Assembly (NCBI GenBank): GCA_905479165.1 | Contig: CAJQLK010000010.1 | Coordinates: 1-35,922, forward strand | DNA from: an uncultured Flavobacteriales bacterium | GTDB lineage: Bacteria > Bacteroidota > Bacteroidia > Flavobacteriales > BACL11 | DNA length: 35,922 nt | Direction: 5' to 3' | Shown here: positions 2,314-21,008 of the stretch, one piece after another | Layout: every line of letters starts with the position of its first letter | How positions within the stretch are numbered: position 1 is the stretch's first letter | Program-made: the position numbers and the translations under genes | The notes under the pieces: generated by a model | Told to the model about the DNA's origin: nothing | Databases searched by the model: none | What the model saw: the letters and a program-made list of their open reading frames with translations, nothing else

Positions 2314-4515
2314 CTAAAATCCTAAAGTAAGTCCTAAAAGATAATTTCTTGTTGCTTCAGGAAAATAAGCAGCCATATTGTAACCTCTTTCGCTATCAGC
2401 ATTTACATAATGATCGTATTCTCTAGGATCATAACCATCAGAAACAAAACGATACACCCAAGCATTGCTTACATATTTGTTGTCTAATAAGTTGTTTACT
2501 TGTAAGGTAAGCTTTGCAGTTTTAAATATTTTACTGTCCCAATCATAAGCTAATCTTAAATTGTTTACTAAATAATCATCTAATTTTCTATCATCAGAAG
2601 AAGTGTTATCAATAAATTGCTCCCCAACATATTTGCTTATAAAATCAAGACTGATATTTTTATCTACTTTATAATTGAAAATTGAAGCCCAAATAGCTGT
2701 TGGAGAAAAAGCTAAATCAGTGTTTTCATAATCTATTTTTTCTTGGTCTCCAGTATCCCAATTGTCAACATATTCATTGTGGCTAATTATTTTGTTTTCT
2801 GATAGCGTCATGTTTCCTTCCCAAGTCATTTTATCAGACAACTTGTATGTAGCTTCAAGCTCAATTCCTTTTCTGTACGACTCATCAATATTTGCTCTTC
2901 TATATGCGCCTACATCATTAATTTGTCCAGTAAGTACTAACTGGTTTTTGTATTTCATGTGGTAAAGATTTACACCTAATGAAAATTTTTCTCCACTTTG
3001 TTTGTACCCAACTTCAGTATCGTAAAGTGTTTCATGTGATGGATATTCATCAGCTTTATTTTCTACATAATCATTTCTGTTCGGTTCTTTATTGGCTACT
3101 GCAAATGACACATAAATGGATTGGCTCTGGTTTAAATCATGAAAAAGCCCGATTTTTGGATTGAAAAATACATGAGATACTTCTTGTTCGGATGGCACCC
3201 CATTTCTGTCATATCCTTCAAATATATAATCTACCCTTCTTCTTTGCAAATCTAAATAAAGGTTAGTAGCATCAGAATATTTATAATTTGCTTTTCCATA
3301 AAAGTTATGATCTAATTTTTCAGCTTTGTTCCAGTAATACTGATGATTGCTTGCTCCATTACTTGCGTACTCAGCCCAGATAATATTGCCGTAATGTTGT
3401 CCAGAATAACTGTTGCTAGCACCACCTAAAACTAAATCAAGGTTACCCATTTGATGATTAAGAGAATAAGTAAATCCTCCAAAATCATTGTTTAACCATT
3501 TCCTTCTGATAAGGTTGGTTGAAGAAATTGTGTCATCAGATAAAATGATATTTTCCAGACCATAATCTACAAAATCTTCTCCAATTTTTTCTTGCTCATA
3601 ATATCCTTCACCATGCGTAAAATGTGCAGCAACATTTACAGTGGTTTCAGTACTTAATTGCTTGCTGTAATGCAATTGGTAATGTGTTTGTCCGTAATTA
3701 TCAACTTCATTTTTATAAGTGTAAGGGTTGAATGTTCTATTTTCGTCTAAATAATTTAAAGGCACACCATTCCAAGCTTGATAAGTGCGTTCATGTCCTG
3801 TAAAAACCAATGCCTTTATAACTGAGCTTGCTCCAAAATATGTTCCTTGTAGGTAAAGAGATTTTAAGTTAGAAGTTGCTCTATCTATATAACCATCAGA
3901 TGAAATTTTAGATACGCGCCCATTAAAAGCAAATTTATTATTGATAAGTCCAGTTCCGAATTCTATATTATTTTTTAATGTAGCAAAACTTCCCATAGAA
4001 TTGCTAGTAGTAAAATAAGGATTTTTCTTTAAACCATCAGTTTTCAAATTTACTGATGCCCCAAAAGCAGAAGCCCCATTAGCTGAAGTCCCTACACCTC
4101 TTTGAATTTGAATGCTCTCAATTGAAGATGAGAAATCGGGCATATTTACCCACCAAACTCCTTGGCTCTCAGAATCATTTAATGGAATTCCATTAATTGT
4201 AACATTTATTCTTGTTGGGTCAGAACCTCTTACTCTAAAGCCAGTATAACCCACTCCAGCTCCTGCATCAGAAGTAGTAACTACTGAGGGAGTAAGTGAA
4301 ATGATATAAGGTAAATCCTGTCCCAGATTTCCTTTTTCAATTTCTGATTTACTGATGTTTGTAAACGCTACTGGAGTTTTTTCAGTTGCTCTAAGCGCAT
4401 TTACATTTACATCATTTAACACCTTTTGCATTGAAATAGTGTCATTTGGCTGTTGTGCAACACCAATAAATGGTAGAGCAAGCAGAGCAGCCATGCAGTT
4501 TTTTTTATTAAACAT
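2314..4515 (-). CDS. TonB-dependent outer membrane receptor, probably thiamine-related
   Basis: 733 aa with signal peptide, plug motif (GFRVRGSDPTRINVTINGIPLNDSESQGVWWVNMPDFSSSIESIQIQRGVGTSANGASAFGASVNLKT) and beta-barrel C-terminus; preceded by a TPP riboswitch. Confidence 0.92.
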   Translation of the reverse strand: MFNKKNCMAALLALPFIGVAQQPNDTISMQKVLNDVNVNALRATEKTPVAFTNISKSEIEKGNLGQDLPYIISLTPSVVTTSDAGAGVGYTGFRVRGSDPTRINVTINGIPLNDSESQGVWWVNMPDFSSSIESIQIQRGVGTSANGASAFGASVNLKTDGLKKNPYFTTSNSMGSFATLKNNIEFGTGLINNKFAFNGRVSKISSDGYIDRATSNLKSLYLQGTYFGASSVIKALVFTGHERTYQAWNGVPLNYLDENRTFNPYTYKNEVDNYGQTHYQLHYSKQLSTETTVNVAAHFTHGEGYYEQEKIGEDFVDYGLENIILSDDTISSTNLIRRKWLNNDFGGFTYSLNHQMGNLDLVLGGASNSYSGQHYGNIIWAEYASNGASNHQYYWNKAEKLDHNFYGKANYKYSDATNLYLDLQRRRVDYIFEGYDRNGVPSEQEVSHVFFNPKIGLFHDLNQSQSIYVSFAVANKEPNRNDYVENKADEYPSHETLYDTEVGYKQSGEKFSLGVNLYHMKYKNQLVLTGQINDVGAYRRANIDESYRKGIELEATYKLSDKMTWEGNMTLSENKIISHNEYVDNWDTGDQEKIDYENTDLAFSPTAIWASIFNYKVDKNISLDFISKYVGEQFIDNTSSDDRKLDDYLVNNLRLAYDWDSKIFKTAKLTLQVNNLLDNKYVSNAWVYRFVSDGYDPREYDHYVNADSERGYNMAAYFPEATRNYLLGLTLGF

Positions 4516-5877: not shown

Positions 5878-6738
5878 ATGAAAAAAATCTTAGTTGTTAC
5901 TTTGCTTTATTGTTCAATAGCAACTTTGTCTTTTGGACAAGAAAAAGCACATCAAATTTACAATAAAGATGGGAGTAAAATTTCCTATAAAACTATGCTT
6001 TTCAAAATAAAAAATGCGGATGTAGTTTTGTTTGGTGAAAATCATAATGATCCGATTTCACACTGGTTACAACTGGAACTTACAAAGAGCTTGTACGAAA
6101 AACATGGAGAAAATTTAATGCTCGGAGCAGAAATGTTAGAGGCTGATAATCAAGTTGTGTTAGATGAGTATTTGCTAGGTTTTAGTAGAGAAAAAGATTT
6201 TGAAAAAGAAGCGAAAATATGGCCAAATCATAAAACAGATTACCGTCCACTTTTAAGATTTGCAAAAGAGAATGATTTGCATTTTGTAGCTACAAATATA
6301 CCAAGAAGGTTTGCAAATATGGTGTATCGTTTTGGTGTTGATACTCTAGCTTATTTGCCAGAAGCATCAAAACAATTTATTGCCCCTCTTCCTATGGCTT
6401 ACGATACTTCATTGCATTGCTATAAAGAAATTTCTATTATGGCTGGAGGGCATGGAGGTGAAAATTTACCGAAATCACAAGCAATAAAAGATGCAACTAT
6501 GGCTCATTTCATACACGTAAATATGAATGAAGACACTAAGTTTATACATTATCATGGTTCGTATCACTCAAAATATCACGAGTCAATTATGTGGTATTTA
6601 TTGCAGTTAAATTCTAGTTTAGCAATACAAACCATAGAGGTAGTAGAACAAGCTGATGTTTCAGAGTTCGATAAAGAACTAATCGGTAATGCTGATTTCT
6701 TTATAGTCGTTGATGAAGATATGTGTAAAACACATTAA
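5878..6738 (+). CDS. ChaN-family (DUF399) lipoprotein-like/secreted protein
   Basis: MKKILVVTLLYCSIATLSFGQ... VVLFGENHNDPISHWLQLELTKSLYE, LGAEMLEADNQVVLDEYL, HFVATNIPRRFANMVYRFG: ChaN motifs. Confidence 0.85.
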   Translation: MKKILVVTLLYCSIATLSFGQEKAHQIYNKDGSKISYKTMLFKIKNADVVLFGENHNDPISHWLQLELTKSLYEKHGENLMLGAEMLEADNQVVLDEYLLGFSREKDFEKEAKIWPNHKTDYRPLLRFAKENDLHFVATNIPRRFANMVYRFGVDTLAYLPEASKQFIAPLPMAYDTSLHCYKEISIMAGGHGGENLPKSQAIKDATMAHFIHVNMNEDTKFIHYHGSYHSKYHESIMWYLLQLNSSLAIQTIEVVEQADVSEFDKELIGNADFFIVVDEDMCKTH

Positions 6739-9560: not shown

Positions 9561-11348
9561 ATGAAAAGATTCTTTACAATTTTATTTTTTAGTTTGTTTA
9601 CTGTAGTTTTTATAAATGCACAGTGTTCTATTGATTATAGTTATTTTCCAGTTGGCGCAAATTATGGTTTATATCCTGATACCTTGCCTGATGGGGTTGT
9701 TGGGCAACCCTATAATCAAGATTTAACTTTTTACCTGCCTCTTGATACTGTTTCTGCAGGTGTTTTTGTAGAGTTTACAGATTTTCATATTACATCAATT
9801 TCCCTTCCACTAGGGCTTTCTTGGGAATGTAATAATAGTGCTAATGCGTGTCATTATGATCCTTTAGTTAGTCAATACGGCTGTGTAAATGTTTCTGGTA
9901 CTCCTTTAGTAGCTGGAAATTATGATGTTAATGTTAATTTAGTAGCTACTCATAGTTTATCTGCTTTAGTAGGAACAGAAAGTATTTCTTTCTCACTTCC
10001 AATGACAATAATTAATGATACGTCTACATCTAATAATGCTGGCTTTGCAATGACAAATTCATCAGGTTGCGCTCCAATAACAGTTAGTTTTACAAATAAT
10101 AATACTGGTATGTTATCTTATTTTTGGGATTTTGGAAATGGCAACACTAGCACTATGCAAGATCCAGTGGATCAGATATATTCTCAGGCTGGGCAGTATA
10201 TTGTGCAGTATTCAGCAATACAAAGTAATCCGTCATATTTTTTAGAAAGTATTGAGGTATTTTCAGGTACTTGCACAGATAATTTCCTGATTGGTGATGT
10301 GGATTTATTATATGATATTACAACTTCAAGTGGAGTTGTACAGTCTGTATCCCCTTCTAATGCGATAACTCAGGCTTTTCCTTTAATGATTAATTTATCT
10401 AACCCATTACAATTAACTGGTCAAGATGTTACAATTGAAGTCTGGGATGATGATGGCTGGATAAGCGGATTAGAATACTGTGGTGGCGTTACTTTTACAC
10501 CGCCACAGCAAGCAGGAACATTTTCTGCAAATGGAGGTGGTTTATCCATAAACTATACTATCATGGAGATTCCTGCAAATACAGTAATTACAGCAGATAC
10601 GATAAATATCTATGGATATCCTAGTACTCCTGTTTTGGTTTACGATACTTTAAATAACTTGATTTACACATCTTCAGATTCCACTGCAATGCAGTGGTAT
10701 TATTATAATAGCCCAATACCTGGAGCTACAGACACCTTTGTTGAACCAACAGCTTCTGGTTTATACTCTTTAGTTGTTGTAAATGAGAATGGTTGTGTGA
10801 CTACTTCTTTAGAGGTTTTAATTGTAATATGCGACACTTCATATCAACCAATGTTGGATGATAATGGATCTACAGCATGGATGTTAGATTCAGCCTTGTA
10901 TTCTAATCTTCAGTGGTTTAGCGTTAGTACTGGAATTATTAATGGAGCAAATCATTCTTTTTTTCCAGCTACTGAAAACGGGGAGTACTATATTGTTGCA
11001 ACTGATACGTTTGGATGTTCATACTCATCAGCTACAGTATACCTAAGCCCTTTTGTAAGTTCAGAAGGAATAGTTATTTCTGAGATTGTAAAGGTTGGGC
11101 CCAACCCTATTGAAAATGGATTTCCTTTGAATATCTATATAGATGCCCCAGCGTTATCACCAGTTATATTTGTTTTGATCGATTTCTATGGAAGGGAGGT
11201 TATTCGAAAGATTGTTCATTACCGCTCTTATCCTTATCAATTTGAAGCAAATGAGCTTAGTAAGTTATCCAATGGGGTATATTATTTAGATATCTCATTT
11301 GATGACAATAAGATAAGAAAGAAAATTGTAAAGTTGGGAGCTAATTAA
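9561..11348 (+). CDS. Secreted PKD-domain protein with T9SS type A C-terminal sorting domain
   Basis: Signal peptide (MKRFFTILFFSLFTVVFINAQ); PKD-like GCAPITVSFTNNNTGMLSYFWDFGNGNTSTMQDPVDQIYSQAGQY; C-terminal VGPNPIENG...ANELSKLSNGVYYLDISFDDNKIRKKIVKLGAN. Confidence 0.85.
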   Translation: MKRFFTILFFSLFTVVFINAQCSIDYSYFPVGANYGLYPDTLPDGVVGQPYNQDLTFYLPLDTVSAGVFVEFTDFHITSISLPLGLSWECNNSANACHYDPLVSQYGCVNVSGTPLVAGNYDVNVNLVATHSLSALVGTESISFSLPMTIINDTSTSNNAGFAMTNSSGCAPITVSFTNNNTGMLSYFWDFGNGNTSTMQDPVDQIYSQAGQYIVQYSAIQSNPSYFLESIEVFSGTCTDNFLIGDVDLLYDITTSSGVVQSVSPSNAITQAFPLMINLSNPLQLTGQDVTIEVWDDDGWISGLEYCGGVTFTPPQQAGTFSANGGGLSINYTIMEIPANTVITADTINIYGYPSTPVLVYDTLNNLIYTSSDSTAMQWYYYNSPIPGATDTFVEPTASGLYSLVVVNENGCVTTSLEVLIVICDTSYQPMLDDNGSTAWMLDSALYSNLQWFSVSTGIINGANHSFFPATENGEYYIVATDTFGCSYSSATVYLSPFVSSEGIVISEIVKVGPNPIENGFPLNIYIDAPALSPVIFVLIDFYGREVIRKIVHYRSYPYQFEANELSKLSNGVYYLDISFDDNKIRKKIVKLGAN

Positions 11349-11757
11349 AGATGTGCAGAACATTATTATCATCCAAACTCAAATTGTAAGTTTTTAATGA
11401 CAAAAGTGCTGGTGCATTTATAGCTTCACCTGTGTTACTTATTAAGAATGCTGAGGCGCAACAACCGCAAAATGCAATTCCAGAATTTACTGAATCAATA
11501 ACTGAACATGATAGTGATGGTTCGTAACTGCAGTTTCTGTCGTAAACTTTATAGTCATTGCCAACTCCATGGTAAATAATTATTCCTTCTACTCCTCCTT
11601 CAATAAAAATTGCACTTCCTGATATTGCGATTTCACTATTTTCGGGTAAGCTTAAATTCACATACTCATTTACATAAACTTCTTGTATGTAATCATTTTT
11701 TGAGTTACAGCTGAGTAGTAAAATATTCATTGTTAGAATGTAAATAAGCTTTTTCAT
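11341..11757 (-). CDS. Lipoprotein, Rieske-fold-like (possible degenerate cluster site)
   Basis: Lipobox LLLLSC; YKVYDRNCSYEPSLSCSVIDS...GIAFCGCCASAFLISNTGEAINAPALLSLKTYNLSLDDNNVLHIFN resembles the Rieske C-terminal half (C..C...S.F....G....GPA..L..Y.V). Confidence 0.55.
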   Translation of the reverse strand: MKKLIYILTMNILLLSCNSKNDYIQEVYVNEYVNLSLPENSEIAISGSAIFIEGGVEGIIIYHGVGNDYKVYDRNCSYEPSLSCSVIDSVNSGIAFCGCCASAFLISNTGEAINAPALLSLKTYNLSLDDNNVLHIFN

Positions 11758-11844: not shown

Positions 11845-14800
11845 ATGTCGAGAAAAATTTATTTAATAGTAGCATTTGCATTAACAACAACTTTTGCTTT
11901 TGCTCAAACAGGATCTCTTAAAGGAGTAATTACTGATGCTATGACTGGTGAGCCAGTTCCTTTTGCTAATATTGTGGCAGAAAAAGGAGGGAATCAAATT
12001 GGTGGTACTACTACTGATTTTGATGGAAACTATACAATTAAGCCTTTAGTCCCCGGTAATTATACTATTAAAGCAACTTTTGTTGGTTATGGTGCTGTTG
12101 AAATTACAGGCGTAATTGTTTCCTCTAACAAAATTACAAAGCAAGATGTTCAACTGCAAGAAGGTGTTGCTATTGGTGAAGTAAAAATTATTGCATACAA
12201 GAAACCTTTACTTGACCAAGATAACTTATCAGGAGAAACAAAAACTGCTGAGGAAATTGTAGCCTTACCAACAAGAAATATAAGTTCTGTAGCTGCAACT
12301 ACTGCAGGTATTTACCAAAAAGATGAGGGTGAAGGGGTAAATGTTAGAGGATCTCGTTCTGATGCTACTGAATATTATATTGATGGGATTAAGGTGAGAG
12401 GTGCTATTGGAGTTCCCACTTCTGGAATTGAGCAGATTACTGTAATTACTGGTGGTGTTCCTGCACAATACGGTGACGCTACTGGAGGAATTATTTCTGT
12501 TACTACAAAAGGCCCTTCTAATAAAACATTTGGTGGTCTTGAGTATGAGTCATCATCATTATTTGATAATTATAATTACAATTTATTAGGATTTTCTTTG
12601 TCCGGACCTTTATTAAAGAAGAGAAATGCTGATGGTTCTAAAGGAAGTTCAATTTTAGGATATTTTATTTCAGGTGAGCTTAGAAGCGTTGATGATAATG
12701 ACCCATCAGCAATTGGAATGTGGAAGGTAAAGGATGATGTTTTAACTGATTTAAAAGCAAATCCTTTTGTATTAGCTCCTAATGCAACGGCAGGCTTATT
12801 AAGTTCTTCTGAGTTTTTAAATGAGGATGACTTTGAATTGGTTGAGGCTAAACTAAACACAAATGATAAAAGAATAAATCTATCTGGTAAAATTGATTTT
12901 AAACCATCTATTAATACGTTCTTGTCATTAGGGGGTTCTTTCTATGCTAGAAAAAGTAATGATTATAACTATTATAGATCAATGTATTCATCTGATGATA
13001 ATCGTAATTCTTCACAAACTACCTATCGTTTATTTGGTAAGTTGACTCAAAAGTTTGGTTCTGAGCAGTCAAATTCAGAGGAAAGTGCATCAGTTATTAA
13101 AAACGCATTCTTTACAATACAAGGAGATTATACAAATAATAAGTACACTTATGATGATGAAAAACATGGAGAGAATATTTTTAACTATGGTTATGTAGGA
13201 AAGTTTAATACATACAAGGCTCCTATTTATCAAAATGGTACTGCAATTGACTCTGCAAGTGGTATCCTTTATAGTGGACAAATTTTAGGTGGTTGGGCAG
13301 ATACTTTATATACATTTGAGGCTAGTGATATTAATCCTGGTTTAGTAAATTATACTTCTGCTTATTATGATATGTTTTCTGAATACGGCGGGAATTCATA
13401 CCAATCTTCAACTATGAGTCAATTTGGTGTTGATGCTTCTAATGATGGCGTGATTAGAACTGCAGCAGACTTGCAAGGACAAGGCTTAATGAATGGTGAT
13501 GCTCCTTCATCAGTATATTCTTTATTTGGAAGTAATGCCTCTTGGTATGGGTACTCTGTTAAGCAAGAAAATACACAGTCAACCTTTAAAGCTTCAGGAT
13601 CTGCAGATGTTAAGTCTCATGAATTCTCATTTGGATTTGAATTTGAACAAAGGAAAGATTATTATTGGCAATTTAACACTTTTAGATCTGTATGGACTCT
13701 AATGAATCAATTAGCAAATAAACATATTTTAGAGCGTGATTTAGCAAACCCAAATCCTGTATTTGATGCTAACGGAACTTTTCAGGATACTATTAATTAT
13801 GATAGATTGTTTGTTGCTGAAGAACAATCTGATTTTGATAGAAATTTAAGAGATGCATTAGGATTAGATCCTAATGGAACTGATTTTATTGATGTTGATT
13901 CTTATGACCCATCAACTTACTCATTAAGTATGTTTAGTGAAGATGAGTTGCTGAACAATGGTACTTCGTATGCTGTATATTATGGATATGATATTTATGG
14001 AAATAAAAATAATGGAGATGCTTCTTTAGCCAACTTCTTTGAAGAAGAGGGTAGTAAAAGATTAATTGCTCCATTTAATCCTATTTATACAGCAGGTTAC
14101 ATCCAAGATAAATTTGCAATTGAGGATTTAATTTTTAATGTAGGCGTTAGGGTAGATCGTTATGATGCCAATCAAAAAGTATTAAAGGATCAACACTTAT
14201 TATATAGTGCATATACTGCTGGTGCTGATATGGATTTAATGAATTCTACTGATATTCCTTCGACTATAGGTAATGATTATGTTGTATATGTTGATGATGT
14301 TGATAATCCATCAGCAATTGTAGGTTATAGAAATAATGATGGTGATACTTGGTATAATGCTGAAGGTTTAGTAATTTCTGATCCTTCTTTATTAGCTGAA
14401 GCCGCTGGTGGTAAAATTGCTCCTTATCTAAAAGATGCAGTATCAGCTGCACAAGGAATAGTAAATGTTAATGAAGTGTTTGAAGATTATACTCCTGAGG
14501 TAGTGTTTATGCCTAGGATTGCATTCTCTTTCCCTATTTCTGATGAGGCTCAATTCTTTGCGCATTATGACGTATTAACACAAAGACCTCCTTCAGGAAA
14601 TAGATTAGAGCCAGTTGATTATTTATTTATGGCCGACAGAGTTGGTGAAAGATTAAATAACCCTAATTTAAAGCCTGAAAAAAATGTTGATTATGAGTTA
14701 GGATTTGCAAAAACTTTATCTTTAAAATCGGCATTAAAAATATCTGCATTTTATAAAGAGTTAAGAGATATGGTTCAGGTAACTAGTGTGCTTTCTGCTT

Positions 14801-15555
14801 ATCCTGCACAGTATTATACTTATGGCAATATTGACTTTAGTACAGTAAAAGGTTTGTCTGTGAATTATGATTTAAGAAGAACAAATAATGTTCAGATGAC
14901 TGCTAACTATACTTTGCAATTTGCTGATGGGACAGGTTCATCTGCAACATCAGGTGCTAATTTAGCAGAAACTGGACAGCCTAACTTAAGAACATTAACT
15001 CCACTTGATTACGATCAAAGACATGCAGTATCTGCATCTGTTGATTATCATTATGGAGAAGGGAAGGATTATAATGGCCCTTTATTGTTTGGAGCAAAAG
15101 TATTTCAGAATGCAGGTGCTAATGTAATGTTCTCTGCAGGATCAGGAACTCCTTATTCTAAACAATCTAACATTACACAAGAAGCAGCAAGTGGGATTAA
15201 TGATAGATCAACACTTGAAGGTAGTCTAAATGGATCCCGTTTGCCTTGGCAATTCCGAATTAATGCTAAAGTTAATAAAGAATTTGAAATCAAGTGGAGT
15301 GATAAAAAGAGTTCACACTTAAATATATATGTTCAAGTTCAGAACTTACTGGATGCTAAAAATATAATGAGTGTATATCGTGCAACAGGTAACCCAGAGG
15401 ATGATGGCTATTTAACTTCATCAGCAGCACAAAATTCTATTGATGCGAAAAATGACCCTGAATCTTTCAGGTACTTGTATTCATTGGCCGTAAACAATCC
15501 TTCGCATTATAGTCTGCCTAGAATGTGGAGAGCAGGTATAAGCTTACAATTTTAA
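11845..15555 (+). CDS. TonB-dependent receptor with N-terminal carboxypeptidase-regulatory-like domain
   Basis: 1236 aa; GSLKGVITDAMTGEPVPFANIVAEKGGNQIGGTTTDFDGNYTIKPLVPGNYTIKATFVGY; plug GVNVRGSRSDATEYYIDGIKVRG...GVPAQYGDATGGIISVTTKGP; aromatic C-terminus AGISLQF. Confidence 0.93.
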   Translation: MSRKIYLIVAFALTTTFAFAQTGSLKGVITDAMTGEPVPFANIVAEKGGNQIGGTTTDFDGNYTIKPLVPGNYTIKATFVGYGAVEITGVIVSSNKITKQDVQLQEGVAIGEVKIIAYKKPLLDQDNLSGETKTAEEIVALPTRNISSVAATTAGIYQKDEGEGVNVRGSRSDATEYYIDGIKVRGAIGVPTSGIEQITVITGGVPAQYGDATGGIISVTTKGPSNKTFGGLEYESSSLFDNYNYNLLGFSLSGPLLKKRNADGSKGSSILGYFISGELRSVDDNDPSAIGMWKVKDDVLTDLKANPFVLAPNATAGLLSSSEFLNEDDFELVEAKLNTNDKRINLSGKIDFKPSINTFLSLGGSFYARKSNDYNYYRSMYSSDDNRNSSQTTYRLFGKLTQKFGSEQSNSEESASVIKNAFFTIQGDYTNNKYTYDDEKHGENIFNYGYVGKFNTYKAPIYQNGTAIDSASGILYSGQILGGWADTLYTFEASDINPGLVNYTSAYYDMFSEYGGNSYQSSTMSQFGVDASNDGVIRTAADLQGQGLMNGDAPSSVYSLFGSNASWYGYSVKQENTQSTFKASGSADVKSHEFSFGFEFEQRKDYYWQFNTFRSVWTLMNQLANKHILERDLANPNPVFDANGTFQDTINYDRLFVAEEQSDFDRNLRDALGLDPNGTDFIDVDSYDPSTYSLSMFSEDELLNNGTSYAVYYGYDIYGNKNNGDASLANFFEEEGSKRLIAPFNPIYTAGYIQDKFAIEDLIFNVGVRVDRYDANQKVLKDQHLLYSAYTAGADMDLMNSTDIPSTIGNDYVVYVDDVDNPSAIVGYRNNDGDTWYNAEGLVISDPSLLAEAAGGKIAPYLKDAVSAAQGIVNVNEVFEDYTPEVVFMPRIAFSFPISDEAQFFAHYDVLTQRPPSGNRLEPVDYLFMADRVGERLNNPNLKPEKNVDYELGFAKTLSLKSALKISAFYKELRDMVQVTSVLSAYPAQYYTYGNIDFSTVKGLSVNYDLRRTNNVQMTANYTLQFADGTGSSATSGANLAETGQPNLRTLTPLDYDQRHAVSASVDYHYGEGKDYNGPLLFGAKVFQNAGANVMFSAGSGTPYSKQSNITQEAASGINDRSTLEGSLNGSRLPWQFRINAKVNKEFEIKWSDKKSSHLNIYVQVQNLLDAKNIMSVYRATGNPEDDGYLTSSAAQNSIDAKNDPESFRYLYSLAVNNPSHYSLPRMWRAGISLQF

Positions 15556-15590
15556 TAAAATAACTAGTAAAAAAGAAAAATAGATTTTTT

Positions 15591-18500
15591 ATGAATAATA
15601 AAATTAAACAAATAGTAACATTATCATTTGCATTCTATAGTATTGCATTGATGGCGAAAGAGAATGTTCCAAATCCCGGAGTAACTTCTGTTGTTAATAC
15701 AAGGGTGGCTGCTGGTTGTAATCCTTCAAAATCTAAAACTGACTTGGATGTAAATAATGTGAGAACCACAATTATGGGTGGAGGAGACATGTGGTGGGAT
15801 TTAGCTGACGCACAGTATGAAATTCCTAAAGGAAGTAAAAAGAATTCAATGTTTGCAGGTGCACTTTGGATTGGTGGTGTTGATGATGGGGGGCAATTGA
15901 AAGTTGCTGCAATGACTTACCGCCAAGATGGTAATGATTTTTGGCCTGGACCTTTAAATGTAAATAATGCAACAATATCAGCTGATGAGTGCGTAACTTG
16001 GGATAAACATTTCAAATTAGATCGTTCAGAAGTAGAGGAATATGTTGCTCGTTTTGATTCAGATCCTACCTATGTTATTCCTAACTCTATATTAGACTGG
16101 CCCGCACATGGTAATGAGACACTAGGACAAGATGAGTTTTTAGCGCCTTTCTTTGATGCAAACGGAAATGATCTCTATGAACCGTTTGATGGTGATTATC
16201 CTGACTATAACATTACTGGAACAAATGATAATGCAAGATTGTTTGGTGATCAAACTTTATTCTGGATTTTTAATGATAAAGGAAATATTCACACTGAAAC
16301 TGAAGCTGAACCTTTAGGTTTAGAGATACATGCACAAGCATTTGGATTTACTGCCGATAATGAAGTTAATGATATGACTTTTTACAATTATAAAGTAATT
16401 AACCGTTCAACACTTCCTTTGAATGATACCTATTTTGGGCAATGGGTAGATCCTGATTTAGGGTATTATTTAGATGATTATGTAGGATGTGATGTAAATC
16501 TTGGATTAGGTATTTGTTATAATGGAGATGCTGAAGATGAAGGTGCTGATGGTTACGGATTTAATCCACCTGCTATTGGAGTAGATTTCTTCCAAGGGCC
16601 AATATCTGATCCAAATGATGGTATTGATAACGATAGAGATGGATTAATAGATGAAGGTTATGATGGTATAGACAACAATAATAATGGTTTAATTGATGAC
16701 CCAGAAGAACGTGAGCAAATTATCATGTCAAAATTTGTTTATTATAATAACGACTTTACCACTATGGGAAATCCTGAATCTGGTACAGATATTTACAACT
16801 ACTTAAGAGGTATTTGGAAAGATAATGTTCCTATGACTTATGGTGGAGATGGTCATGGTGGAGGAACAGGCTCAACAACTGATGAGTGTAACTTTATGTT
16901 CCCTGGAACTTCTGACGCATCTTTTGCTGGAGCAGAATGGACTGAGGTAACTGCTGGAAATGTGCCAGCTGATAGAAGATTCCTGCAATCAGCTGGAGCC
17001 TTTACTTTACAGCCTGGTGCTGTAAATGTTATTACAACTGGTGTTGTATGGGCAAGAGCTAAATCTGGTGGGCAAACTGCATCAGTGCAGTTACTTAAAA
17101 TTTATGATAGAGAAGCTCAGGCTTTATTTGACAATAACTTTGACATTCTTAACGGACCAGATGCGCCTGATGTAACAATTCGTGAGTTAGATAAAGAATT
17201 AATTTTTACATTATCAAATGGTGCTACTTCAAATAATATTGATGAGTCTTACTCTGAGAAAGACCCTTACATTACTAAACCAGATAATATTGCTAACTCG
17301 CCAAATTACGAATTTCAAGGTTACTTAGTTTATCAATTGGAGAATGCAACTGTTTCAGTTACTGATTTAGATGACCCCGATAAAGCAAGACTTATCTACA
17401 GAAGTGATGTAAATGATGATGTAACAGGAATTGTTAATCAATACTTAGATCCTATTTTAGCAGTATATACTCCAATTGAAGAAGTTCCTTCTATATTGAG
17501 TTCTGGTGTAATTGGCTCAGTTGATGAAGGAATTCAGTTTTCTTTCCAAATTAATGATGATAGATTTGCTTTAGGAAATACAAGATTGGTAAATCATAAA
17601 ACTTATTACTTTATGTCATTATCATACGGTTATAATAGAGCTGAAGAGAATGCTGACCCTTATGATGTAAATGCATCTGAATATGATGGGAGAAACCAGC
17701 CTTATATTTCAGGTAGAAGAAATATTAAAGTATATTCTGCAATCCCTCATGTTACTAATCCTGAAAATGGAGGAACAATTTTAAATGCATCTTATGGTGA
17801 TGGGGTTGAACTTGCAAGAAAAGAAGGTCAAGGAAATGGAGGGATGGCTTTAGAGTTTACAAACCAAACTATTGAAGATATTTTAACTTCTGAGGATCAT
17901 AGAAGTTTAAATCCAACATATGTAGCAGGACAAGGACCAATAACTATTACAGTGGTTGATCCTGTAAAAGTCCCTCAAGGAGACTTTACTTTCAAATTAA
18001 TGGATCCTATTTTTGTTGGTAATGCTAATGCTATTAGTTCTTATGGCAGGTGGGAATTGATTGATAATGCAACGGGAAATATAAAAGCTTCAGCCGATCA
18101 AGATATTGATTTAGGTTCTGAGCAATATATCTCACAACTAGGTTTAAATGTAAAAGTAAAACAAACACAAAACCCTGGTACTGACCCAGCTACTATTGAT
18201 GATAATGGATTAATTTCTGGTACAATAGAATTCTCAAATCCTAATGACAGATGGCTAAGTGGGGTTGCAGATAGAGATGATGAGAACGGATTCTTTAATA
18301 TATGGGGCTTTAATTGGATTAGATCAGGTTCTTATACAAATGAGGCTATTGGTCAGTTTAGTGATTACAATATGACTGATGATCCGAATGGGGTATTTGA
18401 AGGGGTTGTAATGCAATCAAATGTTGCTTCATCACAATTTGGAAGTTTTGAATGGACTGGAGGAACATGGGCTCCCTATCGTTTTGCATCTAACTTTAAT

Positions 18501-19838
18501 GATGGCCCTGGTCTCAGTAATTCGACTACTAATGCAGCAAAACTAACTAATTTAAATTCAGTTGATATTGTATTTACTGATGAAAAATCAGAATGGAGTA
18601 GAGTTTGTGTTGTTGAAGCCCAAGATGATGAATCATTATCAATCGGCAATCAAAATAAAATGGGATTAAGACAGTCAGTTTCTGTTGGTAAAGATGGTCT
18701 CCCAGATGGAATGTTAGATGCGAATGGTGATTCTATTAAAGGGCTGGGCTGGTTCCCTGGTTATGCTCTTGATATTGAAACAGGCGAAAGGTTAAATATT
18801 ATTTTTTCTGAAGATTCATGGCAAACTTCTGAGAACGGGAATGATATGCAATGGAATCCTACATCTACTTTATTAACTCCAGGTGATTTTCCTCAATATG
18901 ATTCTCAAAATAATGAGTTCTTAGGAGGTAATTATCTATTAGGGGGGAAACACTTTATCTATGTTGTTAAAGGAGAATCATGGGTAAAAGGTACTGAGGA
19001 TTATATTAATAATATTGCTGATTGTGATTTCTCACCAAACTATGATGAATCAGCTTGGATCTACTCTAAATTACTAAATGATAATAATGGTACTGGGAAA
19101 TATTTTGTATTTAAAAATGTGACTTGGGTTGGAGCTCCTTTATTAGCGCCAGGAAGAGATATGAATTTATCTAATAAGGCAACTGTTAAATTACGAGTAA
19201 CAAAGCCATATAATGCTTACGAAACTGTTACTGAAGATAAATTCTTTGATAAAAATATGGATTTAACTTTAGGAACAACTTATGTTGTTGCCAACTTAAA
19301 TTCAACTTCCACTTGGGGTGGAAAAACTGTTATCTATGATGGTATTGATTATGAGGTTGGAGAATCATTTGTAGCGACAGCCACACTTAATTTTGACAAC
19401 AGCACTTCAACAAAAGCAAGAGCTATTGAAGCCACTGCACTTAATAGTTTTAATCCTACTTATAGTTTCAATACTAACAATATTGTTGCAGTAACTGGTG
19501 ATAATGATGTTGCAAAAGATGCCTTAGATATTATTAATATTGTTCCTAATCCTTATTATGGTTATTCTACATATGAGGTTAATCAATTAGATAATAGAGT
19601 AAAAATTACAAACTTACCAAGAAGAGCAACTATAAAAATATTTACTGTAAGCGGTACTGAAGTTCGTACTTTAAATAAGGATAATAGGATGACTTCAATA
19701 GATTGGGATTTGAAAAATAATTTTGGAATTCCTATTTCAAGTGGTTTATATATTTTGCATATAAATGCTCCTGGAGTTGGAGAAAAAATAGTAAAATGGT
19801 ATGGAGCTTTAAGGCCAATTGATTTAGATACATTCTAA
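15591..19838 (+). CDS. Large secreted protein with Asp/Asn-rich calcium-binding-like segment and T9SS-like C-terminal domain
   Basis: 1415 aa; signal-like N-terminus; GGDMWWDLADAQYEIPKGSKKNSMFAGALWIGGVDDGGQLKVAAMTYRQDGNDFWPGPL; DPNDGIDNDRDGLIDEGYDGIDNNNNGLIDDPEE; C-terminal NIVPNPYYGYSTYE...ISSGLYILHINAPGVGEKIVKWYGALRPIDLDTF. Confidence 0.8.
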   Translation: MNNKIKQIVTLSFAFYSIALMAKENVPNPGVTSVVNTRVAAGCNPSKSKTDLDVNNVRTTIMGGGDMWWDLADAQYEIPKGSKKNSMFAGALWIGGVDDGGQLKVAAMTYRQDGNDFWPGPLNVNNATISADECVTWDKHFKLDRSEVEEYVARFDSDPTYVIPNSILDWPAHGNETLGQDEFLAPFFDANGNDLYEPFDGDYPDYNITGTNDNARLFGDQTLFWIFNDKGNIHTETEAEPLGLEIHAQAFGFTADNEVNDMTFYNYKVINRSTLPLNDTYFGQWVDPDLGYYLDDYVGCDVNLGLGICYNGDAEDEGADGYGFNPPAIGVDFFQGPISDPNDGIDNDRDGLIDEGYDGIDNNNNGLIDDPEEREQIIMSKFVYYNNDFTTMGNPESGTDIYNYLRGIWKDNVPMTYGGDGHGGGTGSTTDECNFMFPGTSDASFAGAEWTEVTAGNVPADRRFLQSAGAFTLQPGAVNVITTGVVWARAKSGGQTASVQLLKIYDREAQALFDNNFDILNGPDAPDVTIRELDKELIFTLSNGATSNNIDESYSEKDPYITKPDNIANSPNYEFQGYLVYQLENATVSVTDLDDPDKARLIYRSDVNDDVTGIVNQYLDPILAVYTPIEEVPSILSSGVIGSVDEGIQFSFQINDDRFALGNTRLVNHKTYYFMSLSYGYNRAEENADPYDVNASEYDGRNQPYISGRRNIKVYSAIPHVTNPENGGTILNASYGDGVELARKEGQGNGGMALEFTNQTIEDILTSEDHRSLNPTYVAGQGPITITVVDPVKVPQGDFTFKLMDPIFVGNANAISSYGRWELIDNATGNIKASADQDIDLGSEQYISQLGLNVKVKQTQNPGTDPATIDDNGLISGTIEFSNPNDRWLSGVADRDDENGFFNIWGFNWIRSGSYTNEAIGQFSDYNMTDDPNGVFEGVVMQSNVASSQFGSFEWTGGTWAPYRFASNFNDGPGLSNSTTNAAKLTNLNSVDIVFTDEKSEWSRVCVVEAQDDESLSIGNQNKMGLRQSVSVGKDGLPDGMLDANGDSIKGLGWFPGYALDIETGERLNIIFSEDSWQTSENGNDMQWNPTSTLLTPGDFPQYDSQNNEFLGGNYLLGGKHFIYVVKGESWVKGTEDYINNIADCDFSPNYDESAWIYSKLLNDNNGTGKYFVFKNVTWVGAPLLAPGRDMNLSNKATVKLRVTKPYNAYETVTEDKFFDKNMDLTLGTTYVVANLNSTSTWGGKTVIYDGIDYEVGESFVATATLNFDNSTSTKARAIEATALNSFNPTYSFNTNNIVAVTGDNDVAKDALDIINIVPNPYYGYSTYEVNQLDNRVKITNLPRRATIKIFTVSGTEVRTLNKDNRMTSIDWDLKNNFGIPISSGLYILHINAPGVGEKIVKWYGALRPIDLDTF

Positions 19839-19875
19839 TTAAATAAAATAATAGACGATAATAAATATTATAAAT

Positions 19876-20937
19876 ATGAAACAAATTAATAACTGGATAA
19901 AAGCTGTAGCAATAATTGTATTAATGCTTCCGTTTTCTAATGCATTTGCAGGAAACCCTCAAAGAGCAGGGCAAGCAGGCGCTTCAGAATTATTGATCAA
20001 TCCATGGGCTAGAACCTCTGGTTGGGGAGGAGCAAATGTTGCTGGAGTTAGAGGATTAGAGGGTATATTCTCAAATGTTGCAGGACTTGCTTTTACTGAA
20101 AAAACAGAATTGATTTTCAGTCAAACACAATGGTTAAAATATGGAGATGAGGCTGTAAGTAATATTAGTGCATTTGGTTTTTCTCAGAAGGTTGGAGAGT
20201 CGGGGGTTTTAGGTTTTTCTGTAATGAGCATGGATTTTGGAGATATTGAAATTACTACTGTAGATTTACCTGATGGTGGTATAGGTACGTATTCTCCTTC
20301 ATTTATGAATCTTTCACTTTCATATGCTAAGATTTTCTCTAATAGTATCTATGGGGGGATGACAGTTAAAATGATTTCAGAACAAATTTCAAATGTAGGT
20401 GCCAATGGTGTTGCATTAGATGCAGGGATTCAGTATGTAACTGGTTCAGAAGATAATTTTAAATTTGGTATTGCATTAAAAAATGTAGGACCAAGAATGT
20501 CTTTCTCTGGTGATGGGCTTTCGTTTAGAGGAATAGTTGGTGATGCTGACGATTATAAAATGACTGTTGAGCAAAGATCATCAGAGTTGGAATTACCGGC
20601 ATTATTAAATATTGGACTTTCGTATGATGTTAATTTTATGCAACATAGAGTTACTGGTGCTGGTACATTCACTTCTAACTCTTTTCAAAAAGATCAATAC
20701 CGTTTGGGTGGTGAGTATTCTTACAATGAAATGTTTATGTTAAGGTTGGGTTACACATATGAGGATGGAATTAGAACTCCATCAACAAGAACAACTGCCT
20801 TAAGAGGTCCTTCAGCTGGTTTTACAGTTGAGTTGCCAATTGGAGATAATGGTTCAACTTTCGGTTTAGATTATTCTTACCGTCATACTGATCCTTTCCA
20901 AGGCTCCCACACTATAGGAGCAAGAATTAATTTATAA
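19876..20937 (+). CDS. PorV/PorQ family outer membrane protein
   Basis: 353 aa; signal peptide; NPQRAGQAGASELLINPWARTSGWGGANVAGVRGLEGIFSNVAGLAFTEKTELIFSQTQWL plus FadL-like beta-barrel, ending ...TIGARINL. Confidence 0.85.
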   Translation: MKQINNWIKAVAIIVLMLPFSNAFAGNPQRAGQAGASELLINPWARTSGWGGANVAGVRGLEGIFSNVAGLAFTEKTELIFSQTQWLKYGDEAVSNISAFGFSQKVGESGVLGFSVMSMDFGDIEITTVDLPDGGIGTYSPSFMNLSLSYAKIFSNSIYGGMTVKMISEQISNVGANGVALDAGIQYVTGSEDNFKFGIALKNVGPRMSFSGDGLSFRGIVGDADDYKMTVEQRSSELELPALLNIGLSYDVNFMQHRVTGAGTFTSNSFQKDQYRLGGEYSYNEMFMLRLGYTYEDGIRTPSTRTTALRGPSAGFTVELPIGDNGSTFGLDYSYRHTDPFQGSHTIGARINL

Positions 20938-20960
20938 AATCAAAACAAAGTTATAATGTT

Positions 20961-20986
20961 CAAAAAGGAAGGTAACTTCCTTTTTG
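20961..20986 (+). terminator. Rho-independent terminator downstream of the PorV-like gene
   Basis: CAAAAAGGAAG-GTAA-CTTCCTTTTTG: 11-bp perfect stem with T-tract in the 3' arm. Confidence 0.85.
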
Positions 20987-21008
20987 TGCGTTTATAAGTT
21001 TACTAATT

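Follow-up and report, generated by a model that had tools for sequence, protein, structure and literature searches.

A conserved gene trio of Bacteroidota encoding a TonB-dependent receptor, a T9SS-type exoprotein and a PorV/PorQ-family barrel: a candidate surface complex for uptake

What do a TonB-dependent receptor, a giant exported protein and an outer-membrane barrel do together when their genes form one compact group? The question is raised by a window (the whole stretch of DNA analysed, 35,922 nucleotides) of contig CAJQLK010000010.1, from an uncultured Flavobacteriales bacterium. The genes encode, on the forward strand, a receptor of 1236 aa (11845-15555), an exoprotein of 1415 aa (15591-19838), whose C-terminal sorting domain (CTD) and tail occupy 19491-19835, and a PorV/PorQ-family barrel of 353 aa (19876-20937), presumed to be the cognate carrier or anchor of the exoprotein. 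The location, the shared strand and the gaps of about 35 nt described in the first-pass annotation were recovered, with 35 nt between receptor and exoprotein and 37 nt between exoprotein and barrel. The strong terminator placed at 20961-20986 (+) also stands: it is an intrinsic-terminator-like hairpin with an 11-bp core and a T-run, which was not flagged by a generic consensus scan, and the 46-nt stretch 20950-20995 folds at -18.9 kcal/mol (z = -7.2), none of 200 shuffles being equally stable. Since the upstream neighbour is divergent (11341-11757, reverse strand) and the hairpin and T-run end the group at about 20986, before greA as the next gene, the trio looks like a self-contained operon from its sequence. 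A promoter scan gave 49 sites, compared with 47 in shuffles. The window also holds a second TonB-dependent receptor of 733 aa (2314-4515, reverse strand), with neither exoprotein nor barrel adjoining, and a ChaN-type haem-binding protein (5878-6738).

The trio is a conserved unit, real and ancient in Bacteroidota. Public genomes of close to moderate relatives gave 62 informative loci, each with a full-length exoprotein and sufficient flanking DNA; the order receptor-exoprotein-barrel on one strand holds in 57, and a receptor lies upstream in all 57 barrel-linked loci. This set was collected with peptide motifs taken from the window exoprotein and favours near relatives; a profile search of the phylum and a set of distant loci were therefore added. 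The exoprotein profile, searched in 393 phylum genomes, matched 213 of the 380 of high quality (the weakest matches including some PorZ CTDs), and in distant Bacteroidota receptor, exoprotein (1008-1390 aa) and barrel follow one another in this order on one strand in 19 of 20 loci. One of those 20 distant exoproteins (L161:6737-10444, genome G149) is the only one to combine a trio-type end with the absence of an adjacent receptor or barrel. Nearly all genomes of the same family carry the exoprotein, the two misses among those listed being incomplete genomes; moreover, several genomes hold many members of the exoprotein family and some hold several diverged copies of the trio. Unlinked orthologues, which the first-pass annotation had set against its own proposal, were looked for as well, and in most loci the orthologues proved to be linked, so that the expected conservation across the phylum was borne out. 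On these synteny counts the arrangement is far beyond chance. Envelope genes are often clustered in bacteria, and the trio might be no more than a set of outer-membrane proteins without mutual relation, grouped in an ordinary operon for co-regulation; this is very improbable, however, given that order, strand and spacing persist across distant genera and that the trio recurs several times within genomes, with its paralogues matched.

The receptor comprises, by Pfam, a CarboxypepD_reg domain (about residues 24-106), a Plug domain (132-216) and a TonB_dep_Rec beta-barrel, and its signal peptide ends before Gln21, which is invariant in an alignment of 25 relatives. It had been called SusC-like, a description that found no support: no SusC/RagA family model was found among its NCBIfam matches at E <= 1e-3, where the generic TonB receptor matches are weak, and for lack of a model match membership of SusC was rejected. 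Furthermore, no match to SusD (PF07980) was found across the organism's own genome (83% complete), and the neighbour of the receptor is a non-lipoprotein of 1415 aa, not a SusD-type lipoprotein. The absent SusD match fits a replacement role for the exoprotein but proves nothing.

The exoprotein starts with a Sec-type signal peptide, judged by eye, and has no plausible lipobox. A conserved N-terminal module (about 40-520) is followed by an FnIII-like stretch (about 530-690, from the sequence pattern), a middle region and the CTD. Within the module Cys43 and Cys134 are invariant in the alignment and more likely form a disulfide; lipoprotein anchoring through Cys43 (AAGC) was ruled out, this residue lying some 20 positions past the hydrophobic core of the signal peptide. 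No Pfam family was matched, and a PDB search for homologues of the exoprotein gave nothing. AlphaFold models were obtained for residues 36-700 and 690-1415 (mean pLDDT 84.6 each). In Foldseek the best matches of the N-terminal module were GH94/GH116-type enzymes and a dextran dextrinase, with E-values down to 4e-6 and weak superposition (TM-score <= 0.28, rmsd > 8.8 angstrom), too weak for an enzymatic or carbohydrate-related function to be claimed or for any ligand to be indicated. In another genome (G310), long tandem arrays of proteins of about 560 aa (L200:3895-19525, reverse strand; L201; L203) consist of this module joined to a type A CTD; the stretches examined contain at least 17 full copies.

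The sorting domain follows the pattern VPNPYYGYSTYE...WDLKN...SGLYILHINAPGVGEKIVKW and ends in the conserved tail ALRPIDLDTF. This tail, (A/V)LRPIDLDTF (window 19803-19835), lies after the last CTD strand in members from Flavobacteriales and Bacteroidales; many distant trio CTDs have another short tail, or none. The domain falls below the type A cut-off (TIGR04183, 18.6 bits against 23; Pfam E = 0.029) and has no match to the type B model TIGR04131. The 595-aa PKD-domain protein encoded at window 9561-11348 (+), which adjoins the trio and is apparently separate from it, provides an internal contrast, with a canonical type A CTD over the TIGR04183 cut-off (30.1 bits). When a profile of 64 trio CTDs was compared with the PDB, it matched PorZ (5m11, E = 5e-6) and PorU (6za2, E = 5e-4), and Foldseek with the C-terminal AlphaFold model (690-1415) likewise placed PorZ first and PorU second. 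They are the two known T9SS proteins that retain their CTD, remaining attached to PorQ and PorV, respectively (PMC10202324, PMC5562754).

A DISCRIMINATING comparison in multi-copy genomes set related exoproteins with an adjoining barrel against those that are solo or in tandem without one. The paralogues without an adjoining barrel mostly carry ordinary type A CTDs: the type A cut-off (NCBIfam) is passed by all seven solo exoproteins and by none of nine barrel-linked ones, and a profile of 14 solo CTDs finds RemZ and NucA in the PDB, two carried substrates that have been observed on PorV within the translocon (PMC10994853). By an end-pattern regex, a barrel is adjacent downstream of 102 of 121 trio-pattern CTDs, compared with none of 25 type A ends; this pattern was chosen post hoc, with the data already seen, and the weight is therefore placed on the model-based counts. 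By its features (signal peptide, Ig-like PorZ/PorU-related CTD, SprA in the genome) the exoprotein counts as a putative T9SS substrate, broadly defined, and its CTD resembles in sequence and fold the retained PorZ/PorU kind, not the cleaved type A. It had been suggested that PorV-type proteins shuttle or hold such clients; since the CTD resembles the retained type, "held" suits this exoprotein better than "shuttled". In genome G358, tandem trio-type exoproteins (L174:7288-19899 and L175:1944-5072, reverse strand) have CTDs that are 99% identical, compared with 77% for the bodies, and are followed by a single barrel, with no adjacent co-directional receptor. Homogenisation of CTDs among tandem exoproteins sharing one barrel was considered and is weakened by a similar trend in stand-alone type A arrays (84% versus 60%).

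The barrel belongs to the PorV family model NF033709 (145 bits, cut-off 90), and the profile of its own family matches F. johnsoniae PorV (6h3i_F, E = 7e-16). It stays well below the cut-offs of the PorV equivalog (NF033710, 63.8 bits against 250) and the PorQ equivalog (NF033711, 73.8 against 220). Genuine PorV (493 bits) and PorQ (307 bits) genes lie elsewhere in this genome, as do PorZ and PorU, and SprA is present too (2702 bits), which confirms the T9SS that the first-pass annotation had implied. Because the genome has its own set of these proteins, the trio barrel is classed by sequence as a third, separate kind beside PorV and PorQ; of the earlier label "PorV/PorQ-like", the family holds, and identity with PorV or PorQ does not. 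The match to PorV, and the fact that shuttling is the role of PorV-family barrels (PMC5562754), would agree with a transient carrier that collects the exoprotein at SprA and delivers it to the PorU sortase, where the CTD would be cleaved and the protein released or linked to LPS. This is improbable: a PorV is already encoded by the genome, the CTD matches the uncleaved PorZ/PorU class, and the conserved tail behind the CTD would be lost on cleavage.

The distribution of the genes bears on their partnership. Of 118 phylum genomes, 63 gave a strong barrel match (E <= 1e-20), accompanied by the exoprotein in 62; a strong exoprotein match (E <= 1e-10) lacking a strong barrel occurred in none of the genomes listed. 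The comparison was made by eye, on a listing from which eight genomes without a barrel match are absent. Genome-wide searches of five genomes in which no barrel had been found next to an exoprotein gave a cognate barrel elsewhere in four (E <= 1e-137), two of these having it adjacent to a further exoprotein copy, and found none in the fifth. The barrel does look dedicated to the exoprotein, as had been supposed, on gene linkage, CTD class and co-occurrence, and we consider it very probable from the sequences that the CTD and the barrel are a dedicated pair.

The place of the receptor is less settled by these data. Five multi-copy genomes contributed 24 trios, in which the distances measured within a genome for exoprotein, barrel and receptor correlate (r = 0.79-0.91, permutation p <= 0.002); such co-divergence is expected from co-transmission no less than from contact and does not tell the two apart. 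The receptor tracks the divergence of the exoprotein body no less closely than does the barrel (r = 0.91), and in 55 of 74 cases body and receptor concur on their best match in another genome; with the body accounted for, the CTD adds little to the barrel correlation (partial 0.12). Trios thus duplicate and diverge as units. Counterexamples exist in the form of trio-type exoproteins standing alone (L084, L095, L098) or in tandem without a receptor (L174, L175). The unit might accordingly be only the exoprotein and its barrel, as a barrel-anchored adhesin or structural surface protein, with a co-expressed receptor serving an independent uptake. PorP/SprF-type barrels do anchor adhesins without a TonB receptor (PMC9143113, PMC12618676), the tandem exoproteins of L174/L175 share one barrel with no co-directional receptor adjacent, and the N-terminal module recurs in the stand-alone secreted proteins that form long arrays (L200, L201, L203). 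We nevertheless regard this as unlikely, since a receptor stands upstream in every barrel-linked locus of close to moderate relatives and in 19 of the 20 distant ones, and co-diverges with the exoprotein body no less than the barrel.

It is on the whole probable, by a modest measure, that the trio encodes one outer-membrane surface complex for TonB-driven uptake, with the exoprotein anchored by the barrel. Sec would take the exoprotein across the inner membrane and the cell's T9SS across the outer one, an export route suggested by its CTD and by the presence of SprA, PorV and PorU genes. Its CTD, of the PorZ/PorU kind, would remain uncleaved and be captured by the cognate PorQ-like barrel, which would keep the protein on the surface as an integral anchor; this step is suggested by the linkage, CTD class and co-occurrence already given. 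The anchored exoprotein may then sit over or beside the receptor and bind or present a ligand for TonB-driven import, serving the trio receptor as the SusD lipoprotein serves SusC. From the constant shared operon and the co-divergence we infer this uptake role, including contact with the receptor, and judge it an even question whether exoprotein and barrel form a working complex with the receptor in uptake.

Several known systems offer points of comparison. The PorQ-PorZ and PorV-PorU pairs of the T9SS attachment complex (PMC5562754, PMC10202324) likewise unite a protein exported by the T9SS, bearing an Ig-like CTD that is not cleaved, with a PorV/PorQ-family barrel that keeps it at the surface (for the trio a proposal based on the genes), and it is PorZ and PorU that the exoprotein CTD matches best in profile and fold; in contrast, the trio barrel stays under the model cut-offs of PorQ and PorV, the exoprotein body bears no relation to the PorZ propellers, and the trio includes a TonB receptor and coexists with PorQ and PorZ in the same genome. 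The pairs of type B CTD and PorP/SprF barrel are like the trio in that the cognate barrel gene directly follows the substrate gene, that some substrates are orphans with the barrel elsewhere, and that several substrates may use one barrel (PMC12618676, PMC9143113), whereas the trio has a PorZ/FlgD-like Ig domain as CTD and a barrel of the PorV/PorQ family. SusC/SusD systems likewise combine a TonB receptor whose N-terminal domain is carboxypeptidase-regulatory-like with a large surface partner encoded alongside, and occur in many copies in some genomes; they differ in that the trio receptor has no SusC model match, the genome has no SusD match, and the partner is a T9SS-type exoprotein with a barrel, not a lipoprotein. 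Finally, BamG-BamH of the Bacteroidota BAM complex is comparable to the architecture proposed here, a FadL-type barrel holding a surface protein by its extracellular loops (PMC12578637, PMC12611786), although BamH is a lipoprotein and the function is barrel assembly.

No account of the trio, of its CTD-barrel pair or of their union with a TonB receptor was found in the open-access papers searched. Given known parts, a pairing rule like those of type B/SprF and PorZ/PorQ, and no such account, the components are of known kinds and the union of CTD, barrel and receptor looks new. The trio looks like an undescribed alternative to the SusC/SusD nutrient importers. More tentatively, and slightly short of an even chance, it may be a widespread second architecture for TonB-dependent uptake of macromolecules in Bacteroidota, with a T9SS exoprotein, anchored by a PorQ-like barrel of its own, as the ligand-binding partner outside the receptor, one which on that same reading would have multiplied and diversified in some lineages as SusCD has in gut Bacteroides.

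Simple predictions follow from the trio, namely the barrel by which each exoprotein is held, and retention of the CTD. If the proposal is true, the T9SS builds import machines too, not only secreted enzymes and adhesins, with PorQ-like barrels as dedicated anchors, and many large hypothetical exoproteins would gain a function, as would part of the large set of barrels known only as "PorV/PorQ family". A third CTD-specified route would then stand beside those of PorV with type A and SprF with type B domains.
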